Origin: a bacterium
GTDB taxonomy: Bacteria; Armatimonadota; UBA5829
NCBI GenBank assembly: GCA_021373255.1
Contig: JAJFTD010000011.1
Span: 1-46,950 of the forward strand
Length of the DNA stretch: 46,950 bases
Direction of reading: 5' to 3'
The stretch's first letter is position 1, and each line of letters opens with the position of its first letter. A program made the position numbers and the translations under genes. Below are positions 11,347-16,601 of this stretch, piece by piece. The notes beneath the pieces are model-generated. The model made no database searches and had not been told where the DNA came from. It saw only the letters and a program-made list of their open reading frames with translations.

Positions 11347-13539
11347 CTATCGCAGCCAATTATTCATAGCATGCGGCCGGTGAGCTAGGTATATAGCCTC
11401 GGCGGCATCCGCGCGTGAGATCGGATCATCAGGTCTGAACGTGCCCGGCTGGGTGTTCTCAAAGAGTTCTGCACTGATCCTATGAGCGGCAAGGGTTTCT
11501 ACTGCGGCATAATATGGCGACTCTTTGGGCACATCGGCATAGGTCGGTTTCTCAGGTATCACCAATCCATCCCACTCCCTTTGCTTCACCTCCACCAGCC
11601 GCATAGCGAACTCACCTCGCGTGATCAGATAATTCGGTGAGGTGGGTGGGTCGGATGTGTTGACTGACCTGCCTTCCAAGCGCATCAACTGGTTCATAGC
11701 CAGTGTCGCTTCATCTTGAGTGAGCGGATCTTCTGGTCTGAACTGCTCTTCGTCCATCACGCCTCTTGCTGTCATGAAATTAATCGCTGCAAAGTGCCTG
11801 GTATCGCGGTCTACATCCGAGTTCCAGTTTATATATGCATATTGCGACAGCAGCTTGTCCTGAATCCAAGCAGGGTTGATCTCATTCAATGGACGGCTAT
11901 ACAAAATGCTCCAGTAAGCCGCTACAGCCGCTGTCTGCCCCAGCGACATACGCACAGGCTCCATACGAAGCGTTCCATATCCGACATGCGAAGCTGACAC
12001 CGCTGTTGAAACCAGCAGACCATCCGCCCCAACCGGCACTAAAAGCCCGTAAGGTATTTGATACCAAGGAGTAAAGCCGACCAGCCACATCTCTCCCTCG
12101 CCCTTATGCTCTGCTGAGGGATCGGTGAGTTCCTCTGTTGCGTGGCTGTCCATCGGGTAGTCACCGATGCCTACCGAGTCGACGCGGTGTAATTCGCGTG
12201 CATTAGTGACATCGTTTTCTCTAAACCAATAGTGCCCCAGCACCCTGCGCGCCTCACGTACATAAAGCGATACCGGAAAATTATCGTTATCCAGAAACTC
12301 GTCGTCCGCAAGGCCAAGGTTGGTGTGGCCCCGTTCGTTCTGCATAAAATAAAGATATCCCAGTGCCCTGTCTCGATACATTGAAGCAATTTCACTGCGC
12401 CGCTTTTCGCTTGCTGTCGGATAATCGTAATTAATCCCCGGCCAATCAATGCCGAACGGGTGCTGGTTTATCTCAAACTTACCATTGGGGAGTCGCCCTG
12501 ATGTAGCATTCCAGGTCTCTTGCCAATCCGGTGAGGGTTGATAGTGTTCAGGATTGTATAAGTTTGGCCTCTGAACTTGTGGCGCTGAGGCGTCACCATA
12601 ATCCTTCCAGATCATGAGATATGCATAAGACATCTGCCTTGTATCACCCTCACCCGTGCTGCCTGGGAGAATTTCCTGCCGCTCATTGTTGAAGAAAATT
12701 GACCCTGCATGCGGCTCGTCAGATGTGCGCGGTTCGCGGCCGACATGATAACGCGCTCCGGCGGACACAGAGAAATCCACCGTATCAGTAGCATCGATAA
12801 TAACAGCAGCGTATAAACGCCCTTCGCAGTTTGATGTAAGATCACGAAGAACCGCACCGGCTACTTTCCTGCCGGACATTATGGGCTTTTCAGCGCGAGT
12901 CTTAAGGAAAATGTGAATGTTTTCGTGTTCGTAAAGCATCGATTTAAACACCGCGTTAGCCACTCGCGGTTCATATCTAAGTCCATTTCCGGTTCCATAG
13001 AAACTTATTATCCTGCGGCGAAAGTCCTCGAAGAAGCCGTTAGCTCTGGATGCATTGCGAATGTCCGTGCTGCCGAGGCCGTTAGAAGCCATCCCGCCCA
13101 CGCGGTTCGTTTCCTCCACCAGTGCGACGCGCAGCCCCAATCGTGCGGCAGTCACAGCAGCAGCCGTGCCTGAGGCGGTGGCTCCAATCACCAATAAATC
13201 GAAATGATCTTCATTCGGAGTCCGGCACCAAGTTTTCTCTTGCACCATTGGTCCACTATCACCCAATGAGAACGTGTACCTGGTATTTGAAGCTAAGCCG
13301 GTGATTGTAGTCGAGGCGAACGGCTTTGTTTGGTCGGGTGGGAACATGCCCAGGAGTTTTCCATCTTGAAAAACCTGTGCCTCATGACCATTGTGTCTCC
13401 AATATAAGGCGATAGTGTCAGGCCCCTGTGCTATGGCTTGGAACGCCCCATCAGGGGATGTTGAAAGCTCGGCATATGCACAGGCGGCTGGAACACACAA
13501 TATCGCAAGCATTAGCAGGCATCTCAGTTCCATGTTCAT
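11347..13539 (-). CDS. Secreted FAD-dependent oxidoreductase with fibronectin-III-like and SLH domains
   Basis: 730-residue exported protein. It has a signal peptide (about 1-23, ending near CAYAEL) and a fibronectin-type-III-like domain (about 28-105). A large FAD-binding domain of the FAD-dependent oxidoreductase type (PF12831-like) begins with LLVIGATASGTAAAVTAARL and has the VEETNRVGGMASNGLGS loop. The C-terminal 130 residues carry S-layer homology repeats (FRPEDPLTQDEA, LITRGEFA, YADVPKESPYYAAVETLAAH, FRPDDPISRADAAEAIYL), which would tether it to the cell surface. The dinucleotide loop reads GATASG, not GXGXXG, as is common in this family. Substrate unknown; a role in carbohydrate or cell-wall chemistry is only inferred. 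ATG 13539 has AGGAACC upstream; ATG 13533 is an alternative. Confidence 0.85.
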   Translation of the reverse strand: MNMELRCLLMLAILCVPAACAYAELSTSPDGAFQAIAQGPDTIALYWRHNGHEAQVFQDGKLLGMFPPDQTKPFASTTITGLASNTRYTFSLGDSGPMVQEKTWCRTPNEDHFDLLVIGATASGTAAAVTAARLGLRVALVEETNRVGGMASNGLGSTDIRNASRANGFFEDFRRRIISFYGTGNGLRYEPRVANAVFKSMLYEHENIHIFLKTRAEKPIMSGRKVAGAVLRDLTSNCEGRLYAAVIIDATDTVDFSVSAGARYHVGREPRTSDEPHAGSIFFNNERQEILPGSTGEGDTRQMSYAYLMIWKDYGDASAPQVQRPNLYNPEHYQPSPDWQETWNATSGRLPNGKFEINQHPFGIDWPGINYDYPTASEKRRSEIASMYRDRALGYLYFMQNERGHTNLGLADDEFLDNDNFPVSLYVREARRVLGHYWFRENDVTNARELHRVDSVGIGDYPMDSHATEELTDPSAEHKGEGEMWLVGFTPWYQIPYGLLVPVGADGLLVSTAVSASHVGYGTLRMEPVRMSLGQTAAVAAYWSILYSRPLNEINPAWIQDKLLSQYAYINWNSDVDRDTRHFAAINFMTARGVMDEEQFRPEDPLTQDEATLAMNQLMRLEGRSVNTSDPPTSPNYLITRGEFAMRLVEVKQREWDGLVIPEKPTYADVPKESPYYAAVETLAAHRISAELFENTQPGTFRPDDPISRADAAEAIYLAHRPHAMNNWLR

Positions 13540-13711: not shown

Positions 13712-13740
13712 TTGTAAAGCGTATAAACCTCTGGTATAAT
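13712..13740 (+). promoter_or_regulatory. Sigma-70 promoter with extended -10 for the 13812 gene
   Basis: TTGTAA at 13712-13717 and TATAAT at 13735-13740 are separated by 17 bases, and TGG precedes the -10 (extended -10). The start point would be near 13747, about 65 bases before ATG 13812. Confidence 0.7.
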
Positions 13741-13811: not shown

Positions 13812-14375
13812 ATGGTAGGACTGAAAAGGCACAAGAGAATCGAAGGATGGGCGGTGGAGGTACCGGACGCGGATTCAGAACTGGGGCAGCTTACGCCGAT
13901 ACAACGGCTGGCTGAGAATAACCGGTTGTGGGTGTTCAGCCTGGCGGGCGTTCTGGTATTGGCGATATTGCTGATGTTTATATTCAAGCATTCAGCGAAA
14001 CCCGCTGATCCTTATGGTGTCCGTCCGAGCTATGCCAACAAAGGCTATTACGACGATCAACAGCATAGATTGTTTGCCCAAGAGTTTGCGGTGAACAAAT
14101 CGTATGGATCTGCAGTCATAGAGGCCAACTTCGTCTCTCTAGATCGATTCAAAATCGTCCTCGATGGCAACTGCAGCGCAGATGAGATCGACTACGCCGC
14201 CAAGATGGCTGCGATGCTCATATTGAGAAAGTTCCGTTACAGAGCCGTTGTGCAGTGCTATGTGCGGCGCGCTTCAGATGGAGTCGAACACTTGGCTGCT
14301 ACTACTATATGGTCGCCGAAGAAGTATGGGTTTGTGGTGAAGTTCGAGAACTCCAACGCGCAGATGACAAACTGA
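13812..14375 (+). CDS. Hypothetical single-pass membrane protein
   Basis: 187-residue protein of no family I recognise. A basic N-terminal segment of about 38 residues precedes one hydrophobic helix (LWVFSLAGVLVLAILLMFIF, about 39-58), followed by KHSAKP, so the N-terminus should be cytoplasmic and the remaining 125 residues extracytoplasmic. The soluble part ends in alternating hydrophobic and charged segments and has two cysteines. ATG 13812 is preceded by GAGGAGGGA about ten bases upstream. It has its own promoter at 13712-13740 and lies 97 bases before the SIMPL gene, with which it may be co-transcribed through the structured spacer. Confidence 0.7.
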   Translation: MVGLKRHKRIEGWAVEVPDADSELGQLTPIQRLAENNRLWVFSLAGVLVLAILLMFIFKHSAKPADPYGVRPSYANKGYYDDQQHRLFAQEFAVNKSYGSAVIEANFVSLDRFKIVLDGNCSADEIDYAAKMAAMLILRKFRYRAVVQCYVRRASDGVEHLAATTIWSPKKYGFVVKFENSNAQMTN

Positions 14376-14392
14376 ACCTGATAATTATCCTG

Positions 14393-14467
14393 CACCTCCG
14401 GGTATAAGCATCCTGCTTGCTTATTTAAATTGAGCGGGAAGCCGCTCTAGCTCTATACCTGGAGGTG
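14393..14467 (+). promoter_or_regulatory. Structured leader that can sequester the SIMPL gene ribosome binding site
   Basis: CACCTCCGGGTATA at 14393-14406 pairs over all 14 bases (one G-U) with TATACCTGGAGGTG at 14454-14467, which contains the GGAGGTG ribosome binding site of the next gene. Inside are two further hairpins: AAGCA/TGCTT (14406-14410 with 14414-14418; its first base competes with the outer stem) and a perfect GAGCGG/CCGCTC (14432-14437 with 14442-14447, loop GAAG). The whole resembles a three-way junction. In the closed form the start site would be hidden. Confidence 0.65.
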
Positions 14468-14472
14468 TTGTT

Positions 14473-15168
14473 ATGTACAGTCTTCGGACACTCAGCATAT
14501 ATGCTGCGATCGCCATTTTATTGTGTGTGCTGCCTCTTGCTGCGCAGGCTCAGCAGCCTCAAACTGGCGTTATAGCCACAGGCACATCCACCGTCACAGG
14601 CACCCCGGACACAGCTTTTGTCACATTCGGCGTAATGAACCAGGACCGTGACGCTGCTGCCGCCGCGCGGGAAAATGCAACCAAGACCACAGCGGTGATC
14701 AATGCCATAGTGAGGTTTGGGATTCCACGAAATAATATCCAGACTGTGAACTACTCCGTCTCACCGGTAATGGACTACAAGCAAAATCCACCCGTTACCG
14801 TCGGCTACCAGGTCACAAATCAAGTGCGCGTAAAGACCAAGGATCTCACCAAAACCGGGCAATTGATAGATGCGGCAGTGGGAGCCGGTGCCAACAACGT
14901 GCAATCGATAGAATTTACTGTGGAAGACCCATCTCCCTTGCGAAGACAGGCGCTGGTTAATGCTATTGCAGATGCAAGGGCAAAGGCTCAGGCAATGGCA
15001 GATGCGCTGGGTGTGAAGCTGGGCAGAGTAACACAAGTTTCGGAGTCAGTAGGCATCACCCCACGCCCAATGTATGCCGCCGCAAGATCCGAAGCAGCCC
15101 CTACACCCATTTTACCGGGTGAGGTGGAGATTACCGGCAATGTGACAGTGGTTTATGCGATTTTGTAG
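14473..15168 (+). CDS. SIMPL (DUF541) domain periplasmic protein
   Basis: 231-residue exported protein. The signal peptide spans about 1-27 (hydrophobic core AAIAILLCVLPLAA, cleavage near AQAQQ). The mature part is a SIMPL/DUF541 domain: it begins ATGTSTVTGTPDTAFVTFGV, continues with the QTVNYSVSPVMDY strand, and has the conserved late segment ALVNAIADARAKAQAMADAL followed by a GEVEITGNVTVVYAI ending. E. coli YggE is of this family and is linked to oxidative stress; some family members form large periplasmic rings. Function in this organism is not known. The ribosome binding site GGAGGTG (14461-14467) is 5 bases from ATG 14473 and is embedded in a leader stem that can block it. Confidence 0.9.
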   Translation: MYSLRTLSIYAAIAILLCVLPLAAQAQQPQTGVIATGTSTVTGTPDTAFVTFGVMNQDRDAAAAARENATKTTAVINAIVRFGIPRNNIQTVNYSVSPVMDYKQNPPVTVGYQVTNQVRVKTKDLTKTGQLIDAAVGAGANNVQSIEFTVEDPSPLRRQALVNAIADARAKAQAMADALGVKLGRVTQVSESVGITPRPMYAAARSEAAPTPILPGEVEITGNVTVVYAIL

Positions 15169-15190: not shown

Positions 15191-15228
15191 GGCTGCGAGA
15201 ATCGATCAGAAGTGCAATTCTCGCAGCC
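15191..15228. terminator. Bidirectional hairpin between convergent genes
   Basis: Perfect 12-bp stem: GGCTGCGAGAAT (15191-15202) with ATTCTCGCAGCC (15217-15228), loop of 14 bases. It sits between the SIMPL gene stop (15168) and the HAF-repeat gene stop (15240). No long T-run is present on either side. Confidence 0.65.
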
Positions 15229-15239
15229 CCTTATAGAAG

Positions 15240-16586
15240 TTACTTAGCTCCCACAATTCGTACAGAGTCACTGCCCTGTACTTTGGTTCCATTAAATGTA
15301 GTTCCGGTAAGGGTTAGTGAGGTAGTTTCAGGCAGCAGTTGCAGGTCAGTAGTTTTGAAACGGAAAACCATTTCCTGAGTACCGTCTCCATCTACGTCAT
15401 CAAGCTCGTGAGCAATCGATGATGCTCCAGCAAGCATTACTGTTGAATAGTCTAAATCTTTAATTCTGAAATCTTCTGAAGCAAAGACAGCTACTGCCAC
15501 TTTCCCTTTACTCTTCAAGTTGATCACGTTTGGCTCTTCATTTGGCCTGATGTCGATTTTAGTGATATAGATAGGATTCAACAGCAGAGCATGATAATTC
15601 CGCTGTTGGTCTACGCCAGTAGCGGCGATCTGGCTGTGATTATTGATGCGGATAGGTGCTATTACCGTCCAACCGGATCCGGGCAAGATCATATCATTTA
15701 GATTCATCCATGTCTCATTTCTGTAGAGCATTGGTATGGAGATTAGGGAACGGTAATTAAACCTGATACGTCCGACAATTTCACCCAAATCGTTTATGTC
15801 ATAATTGTAATCCATTGTATTGCCGCAGCTAATGCCCAAATCTGTAGGAACTCCGTCTTTCCATAAAACAATTCTTTCTCCACTAGGTCCATCATCTCTA
15901 GAATTAAAGGCAATGCCGATGACATCACCCATATTGTTGATCCGATTACCGATACATAAGTAACAACCAGGGAGAGGCTCCAGGTATCTTGCTGTTCCGT
16001 TTTTCCAGATGAAAGTGCGATAACTGAACGGGAACGTACCCCTAATTACACCCAGGATTTGGCCTTTGTCATTAATATCTCTGCCTCTGCTATCATGATT
16101 CGAGTCAAGACCCTCCAACATCGACAAAACACCATCTTTCCATCTGAAAGCATGGTTATCGGCATAGCCTGTAACCTCACTTTGGTTATTTATGGCTGTA
16201 GCATAACAGTCTTTTCCTGCTGGCGGCACTCCCAGATCAGTAAGGCTTCCGTCGCGCCAGATAAAACCATGATTCTGTCGATTTGCATAATAGTAGCAAC
16301 CTACTATTTCGCTAAGATCATTTAGATCATAAGCTATTGCAAACAGCCGATTAGGAATGTCAATGTTGTGGAGAGAGCCGTCCCAGAAGAATAAATGTGG
16401 AGTGCCATATGAATAACAAGCTACTTCCCCCAGATTATTCAAGCCAGAAGGATAACTTGCATTCCGACCGAATGTGCCACAACTAATTACCTCATAACGT
16501 AATTCTGCTCCTGCTCTGGGCACCCAGAGATTCAATGATAACAAGCCGATGAGTAAAGTGAGAATACATTTTCTGTTCAATTGCAT
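15240..16586 (-). CDS. Secreted HAF-repeat protein
   Basis: About 448-residue exported protein. After a signal peptide (core ILTLLIGLLSLNLW, cleavage near RAGAEL) come about six copies of a HAF-type repeat of roughly 45-50 residues, each with an INN.GEV.G turn and an F.W.DG..T.L strand pair (for example INNQSEVTGYADNHAFRWKD). Such repeats probably form a beta-propeller-like surface protein. The last 100 residues (from IDIRPNEEPNVINLKSKGKV) match a C-terminal domain common in secreted proteins of environmental bacteria and archaea. Start: TTG 16598, ATG 16586 and TTG 16580 are all in frame. AAGGAGG at 16590-16596 is only three bases from the ATG but well placed for TTG 16580, so the true start may be 16580. 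Confidence 0.8.
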   Translation of the reverse strand: MQLNRKCILTLLIGLLSLNLWVPRAGAELRYEVISCGTFGRNASYPSGLNNLGEVACYSYGTPHLFFWDGSLHNIDIPNRLFAIAYDLNDLSEIVGCYYYANRQNHGFIWRDGSLTDLGVPPAGKDCYATAINNQSEVTGYADNHAFRWKDGVLSMLEGLDSNHDSRGRDINDKGQILGVIRGTFPFSYRTFIWKNGTARYLEPLPGCYLCIGNRINNMGDVIGIAFNSRDDGPSGERIVLWKDGVPTDLGISCGNTMDYNYDINDLGEIVGRIRFNYRSLISIPMLYRNETWMNLNDMILPGSGWTVIAPIRINNHSQIAATGVDQQRNYHALLLNPIYITKIDIRPNEEPNVINLKSKGKVAVAVFASEDFRIKDLDYSTVMLAGASSIAHELDDVDGDGTQEMVFRFKTTDLQLLPETTSLTLTGTTFNGTKVQGSDSVRIVGAK

Positions 16587-16601
16587 ATCCTCCTTCAAAT
16601 G

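Follow-up and report, generated by a model that had tools for sequence, protein, structure and literature searches.

The leader of a SIMPL-domain gene in this Armatimonadota genome is predicted to fold back on itself and to bury the Shine-Dalgarno (SD) sequence of the gene in a long stem. The occlusion is well supported, and we believe that it is very probably a selected feature. The explanation we favour, at a probability of roughly 40%, is that the stem acts as a fold-back lock on read-through mRNA, while the SIMPL gene would have its own promoter within the 5' arm of that stem. Transcripts that run in from the upstream gene's promoter would carry both arms and, as the in silico pairing suggests, fold into a form whose SIMPL ribosome binding site (RBS) would be inaccessible. 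A second promoter, with its -10 box GGGTATANT in the 5' arm, would start an RNA a few bases further on. Since an RNA starting at this box would lose the 5' arm, it could be translated, and synthesis of the SIMPL protein would depend on activity of the gene's own promoter, not merely on transcription of the upstream gene. We infer the internal promoter, which is weak in the copy studied here (TATAAG, no -35). If this reading is true, a phage-style silencing of read-through mRNA operates on an ordinary chromosomal gene pair in three families of one order. Co-transcribed neighbours would then need not be co-expressed, and the SIMPL mRNA would exist in a long form that is silent and a short one that can be translated.

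The leader lies between two neighbouring genes of a draft genome (4.19 Mb, 201 contigs), in a stretch of 46,950 nucleotides, hereafter the window. The upstream gene (13812-14375, plus strand) encodes 187 amino acids without a Pfam or NCBIfam match, and is present in 14 of the 19 genomes of the order. The SIMPL-domain gene (PF04402, Pfam E 5.1e-58) occupies 14473-15168 of the same strand, starts with an ATG at 14473 and encodes 231 amino acids. A promoter-like site, TTGTAA-17-TATAAT with a TG before the -10, lies at 13712-13740 (plus strand) and is the presumed source of read-through; the consensus scan that located it found three such sites against 2.1 expected by shuffles. Judged by its sequence, the upstream gene has its own conserved promoter motif, CTCTGGTATAAT being found at most 120 bases upstream in nine of the 14 genomes that have the gene. 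Between the two genes of the window, one terminator-like match was found against 1.4 expected, which is the level of chance.

A few further features of the locus may be recorded. The 187-aa protein has, by eye, one apparent membrane stretch. The minus strand at 11347-13539 encodes an FAD-dependent oxidoreductase (PF12831) fused to an S-layer homology domain. A perfect 12-bp inverted repeat, GGCTGCGAGAAT, lies at 15191-15228 between the SIMPL gene and a convergent minus-strand gene (15240-16598); it is perhaps a shared terminator, although without a clear T run.

A preliminary description of this locus claimed that a 14-base segment pairs with the region of the SIMPL SD, and this is borne out. 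Positions 14393-14406 (CACCTCCGGGTATA) pair with 14454-14467 (TATACCTGGAGGTG) through 13 Watson-Crick pairs and one G-U, and a further G-U at 14392/14468 extends the stem; the predicted 5' arm, GCACCTCCGGGTATA, thus spans 14392-14406 and the 3' arm, TATACCTGGAGGTGT, 14454-14468, both on the plus strand. The SD itself, GGAGGTG at 14461-14467, is inside the predicted stem, as had also been claimed. The RNA of 14380-14490 folds with -41.3 kcal/mol; 200 dinucleotide shuffles give -26.7 +/- 3.2 (z -4.55), and none of them was equally stable. Opening the SD costs 18.5 kcal/mol, more than for any other of the 28 ORFs with an SD in the window (11.0 for the second, median 5.6); these ORFs were called mechanically, and some are surely false. 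When only the upstream part was shuffled, opening of the initiation region cost 8.7 +/- 1.8 kcal/mol against 20.2 for the real leader, and 0 of 500 shuffles were as high.

SIMPL genes occur in ten of the 19 genomes of the order, and in eight they adjoin the 187-aa gene (the window's own genome and G003, G004, G013, G015, G016, G017 and G018). A protein search of the genome contigs gave 13 loci, and the leaders were compared without the 10 that lie outside Armatimonadota. Besides our genome, six others, all of those named except G013, combine the gene pair with a similar 5' arm, and together they represent three families of one order. An intergenic arm carrying GGGTA is present in seven of the eight neighbour-pair genomes, with GGGTATA in six of these. 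Its partner is TATACCT-GGAGG in our genome, TACTC-GGAGG in G003, G004 and G016, ACC-GGAGGC in G018 and, in a shifted register, ATCC-AGGAGG in G015, making arm-SD pairing possible in five of the six relatives. The arm of G017 is without an SD partner; for its GGTATAAATGCATTGCC the possible partner is GGCAATGCAAGCATATACC, around the start codon, and its MFE fold pairs the 5' arm with the start codon and early coding region, not with the SD, no better than shuffles do. The leader is absent from G013, where the SIMPL gene starts close behind the upstream stop codon, and from G009, a member of the same family.

Of the 24 SIMPL loci (L002-L025), 18 entered the occlusion tests, those with an unclear start codon or a distant match (L016, L020, L021, L023, L024 and L025) being left out. 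Homologues without the pairing had been named beforehand as evidence against the proposed lock. Occlusion beyond upstream-only shuffles was found in our genome, G003, G004 and G015 (each 0/500), and was borderline in G018 (p 0.048), but it did not exceed shuffles in G016 (p 0.14) and G017 (p 0.21), nor in the leaderless G013 (p 0.76). All 11 other SIMPL leaders tested, nine from outside the order plus those of G013 and G009, were unoccluded (p 0.11-0.88). In a ranking of SD opening among 106 mechanically called SD-bearing ORFs in the loci of the order, SIMPL leaders took ranks 1, 2, 9, 13 and 18, and those of G013 and G017 fell outside the best 20.

Compensatory changes in the stem had been suggested as support for the pairing. 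Because MAFFT aligned G016, G018 and G015 one base out of register, its alignment was set aside for a formal count of covariation, and the pairs were instead tabulated by a hand-set register in five leaders (our genome, G003, G004, G016 and G018). One stem pair is A-U in our genome, G-U in G003, G004 and G016, and G-C in G018; two pairs exchange C and U opposite G, and another is C-G or U-G. In this register G016 fails one pair and G018 five of 13, the MFE fold of G018 using a different register. Pairs are therefore kept while their bases change, but since most changes are one-sided and of the wobble type, we regard the covariation as supportive, not strong. Considering that relatives keep the occlusion and that the pair changes are mostly of this type, the core of the first reading holds, namely that the leader can lock the RBS away. 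A DNA operator palindrome was also considered; the variable spacing of the arms and the presence of several G-U pairs make it less likely.

Beyond the stem, the conserved sequence looks like a promoter -10 box more than a core that senses ligand or heat. In the window the putative box is GGGTATAAG at 14400-14408 (plus strand), within and just beyond the 5' arm; its variants are GGGTATAAT in G003 and G004, GGGTATAGT in G016 and GGGTATACT in G018. GGGTA is kept in all seven arms, and a -10-like TATANT (GGGTATANT) in four. Read from the T of GGGTA, these four have TATAATA (G003, G004), TATAGTA (G016) and TATACTA (G018), and the other loop bases differ. Poorer boxes are those of our genome (TATAAG, in which the key last T is absent), G015 (TAAAAA) and G017 (TATAAA). 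Inspection by eye showed neither a -35 nor an in-register TGN in any copy. Promoters of the sigma B type have GGGTAT as -10 and GTTT as -35 some 12-14 bases before it. A general-stress sigma factor was dropped as a candidate, since in G003 and G004 no more than 8-9 bases separate GTTTTA from the box; by eye, a -35 of this type is absent from the remaining leaders.

The extended -10 TGGTATAAT occurs 79 times in our genome against 25 for the reversed control. No enrichment was seen for GGGTATAAT in our genome (28 against 38) or for GGGTATANTA in G004, G016 and G018 (43 against 71), and these counts were rejected as evidence of promoter enrichment. A promoter-like position, that is, outside long ORFs and close before a start with an SD, was found for five of the 28 GGGTATAAT sites in our genome and for seven of the 30 TGGTATAAT sites fetched of the 79, against 4.3% of 1500 random positions, which were sampled from the window and the loci fetched around pattern hits.

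The full element CTCC-GGGTATA was considered as a general promoter motif and rejected. It has 62 sites in the 19 genomes of the order against 43 for the reversed control. Thirty of the 62 were fetched as loci. Two are SIMPL leaders, and all but two of the remaining 28 (the exceptions being L114 and L116) lie inside a stop-to-stop frame of at least 200 codons on one strand; the full element therefore does not qualify as a general promoter motif. For one of these 26, L122, the long frame is that of the htrA-like gene it precedes. Across the phylum (291 genomes), CTCC(N)GGGTATA-N8..38-GGAGG had 14 matches against 18 for reversed controls, three of the 14 being SIMPL leaders; the pattern misses our own leader, whose loop is too long, and that of G016, which has CTTC.

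We modelled a start inside the arm as an RNA beginning 12 nt downstream of the box's first base. In this model the initiation region becomes easier to open, by 13.9 kcal/mol in G003, 11.1 in G004, 10.9 in our genome, 6.4 in G016, 6.0 in G018, 3.9 in G015 and 2.9 in G017, the last being within the control range. The comparison set of 27 other promoter-like leaders includes eight of one orthologous gene; 25 of the 27 change by -1.9 to 3.3 kcal/mol, and two, L049 (6.9) and L201 (7.8), match some SIMPL leaders in their relief. Of the eight GGGTATANTA sites, L176 stayed outside this comparison. Measured by mean unpaired probability, truncation would free the SD only in part: it rises from 0.00 to 0.10 in our genome, from 0.00 to 0.18 in G004, from 0.00 to 0.11 in G003 and from 0.01 to 0.41 in G016, hardly moves in G018 (0.22 to 0.24), and falls in G015 (0.37 to 0.10) and G017 (0.60 to 0.31).

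The stem might instead serve a conditional translational switch without an internal promoter, in which a protein, a helicase, a small RNA or another signal opens the SD stem. Such a switch would account for the strong occlusion in several leaders, and it gains from the poor -10 box of the window copy (TATAAG), since with so poor a box this copy may depend on the full-length mRNA. Yet no loop or core that could serve a ligand or protein is conserved among the leaders, their apical parts vary in length and sequence, and the window gave no Rfam match. A switch would also leave unexplained why four relatives retain TATANTA in a loop that is unpaired. We consider this alternative rather unlikely on balance.

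It is distinctly unlikely, in our view, that the pairing is without function and arises from the coincidence of a GGG-type promoter, preceded by CTCC, with a strong SD. A CTC recurs before TGGTATAAT in the promoters of the upstream gene, so that the CTCC facing GGAG could be partly fortuitous, and the weak or borderline occlusion in G016, G017 and G018 would fit such an origin. Against it stand the pairing of 13-15 bp in our genome, G003 and G004, with its G-U and A-U exchanges, and the 25 of 27 other promoter-like leaders that are without such occlusion.

We give still less credence to translational coupling, in which ribosomes ending the upstream gene would open the 5' arm or sit on it and so free the SD, the SIMPL protein being made in step with its neighbour. 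The conserved gene order agrees with coupling, and the arm follows the stop codon by only 4 nt in G015 and 10 nt in G017. The corresponding gap, however, is 16 nt in our genome, 17 in G003, 19 in G004, 28 in G018 and 139 in G016, and gaps of 16-139 nt are at the edge of, or beyond, the footprint of a terminating ribosome.

The preliminary description further proposed a three-way junction formed by two inner hairpins, and on this basis a riboswitch or an RNA thermometer with a possible link to stress. The two small hairpins (14407-14421 and 14432-14447, in the apical region 14407-14453 of the plus strand) do appear in the window fold, but the relatives are without them: the apical part is a short loop in G004, G016 and G018, an extension of the main stem in G003 and a different inner hairpin in G015, and these five leaders share no conserved junction or aptamer core. 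The leader had not been recognised as a known riboswitch class, and Rfam yielded no family for the window at the gathering threshold or up to E 5. A thermometer would agree with an SD paired in a leader stem, and the SD of G016 does open clearly with heat in silico, alone among the leaders (unpaired 0.12 at 75 C and 0.42 at 85 C). Predicted changes with temperature were small in G015 and G018, and in our genome, G003 and G004 the SD stayed unpaired at no more than 0.022 even at 85 C. The link to stress drew on the SIMPL/YggE family name; YggE-like relatives are annotated as oxidative-stress proteins, but the SIMPL protein reaches 115.9 bits against the NCBI oxidative-stress equivalog, whose cut-off is 249 bits. 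Since the inner hairpins are not conserved and our own stem stays shut at 85 C, a thermometer or a classical riboswitch is very improbable as judged from these predicted folds.

A fold-back lock on read-through mRNA has counterparts in known systems. In the fold-back inhibition of the IS10 and IS50 transposases, RNA that reads in from outside hides the transposase RBS in a pairing with upstream sequence. The SIMPL leader resembles these elements in the predicted sequestration of its RBS within RNA entering from outside; in IS10 and IS50 the mechanism serves the control of transposition and the arms derive from the end of the element. In phage T4 gene e, as PMC3014915 describes it, longer early transcripts fold and lysozyme synthesis from them is about 100-fold lower, while transcripts from late promoters are without the 5' part and are well translated; a promoter box, TATAAATA, lies in the 5'-strand DNA, where phages related to T4 keep a late promoter (PMC3014915). 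Going by that account, the cases share an SD in a stem of read-through RNA, predicted in ours, and T4 has a promoter box in the 5' strand where ours has a putative one. They differ in that gene e is a phage gene read by a phage late sigma factor, whereas our case is a chromosomal gene pair with a putative vegetative -10, known from sequence.

Similarly, PMC2988022 describes a very stable RBS-sequestering hairpin on transcripts from upstream promoters for I-TevI, I-TevII, I-TevIII, segB and mobE, with the late promoter of I-TevI-type leaders placed in such a way that late transcripts cannot form the hairpin. To judge from this description, the predicted hairpin in the read-through RNA of the SIMPL gene is of the same kind, but those are phage homing-endonuclease genes and ours is a conserved bacterial chromosomal gene pair. 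The Yersinia yopN thermometer has the SD and start codon in one hairpin and both long and short transcripts; unlike the proposed SIMPL short form, both yopN transcripts keep the hairpin, which melts at 37 C (PMC8612567). Among the titles and beginnings of abstracts listed for fold-back and read-through sequestration, none revealed a chromosomal case with a promoter in the arm.

One might extend the proposed lock to the view that the order uses leaders with a promoter in the arm as a standing insulation of chromosomal genes in transcribed neighbourhoods, a generalisation that we regard as unlikely. Beyond SIMPL, the leaders L049 and L201 are candidates for such insulation, with a similar loss of modelled occlusion on truncation.

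Four of the loci fetched along the way deserve a short description. L049 (G000:C33:24352-24389), from our genome, has GGGTATAAT, TATACCCC and GGGGTATACCAGGAGG in this order before a 60-aa ORF that, by eye, is zinc-ribbon-like. L201 (G016:C65:43722-43731) is a GGGTATATTA leader of a gene for a DoxX-like membrane protein, again named by eye, and its arm can pair with the start-codon region. L096/L122 (G013:C269:8826-8860) has a CTCCGGGTATAAT box and a GGAGG before a gene whose protein start resembles, by eye, an HtrA/DegP protease. Finally, L116 (G001:C1:21617-21627) has CTCCGGGTATACT a short distance upstream of a 253-aa ORF whose start resembles a signal peptide; opening its SD, which is fairly occluded, costs 10.1 kcal/mol (rank 12 of 106).
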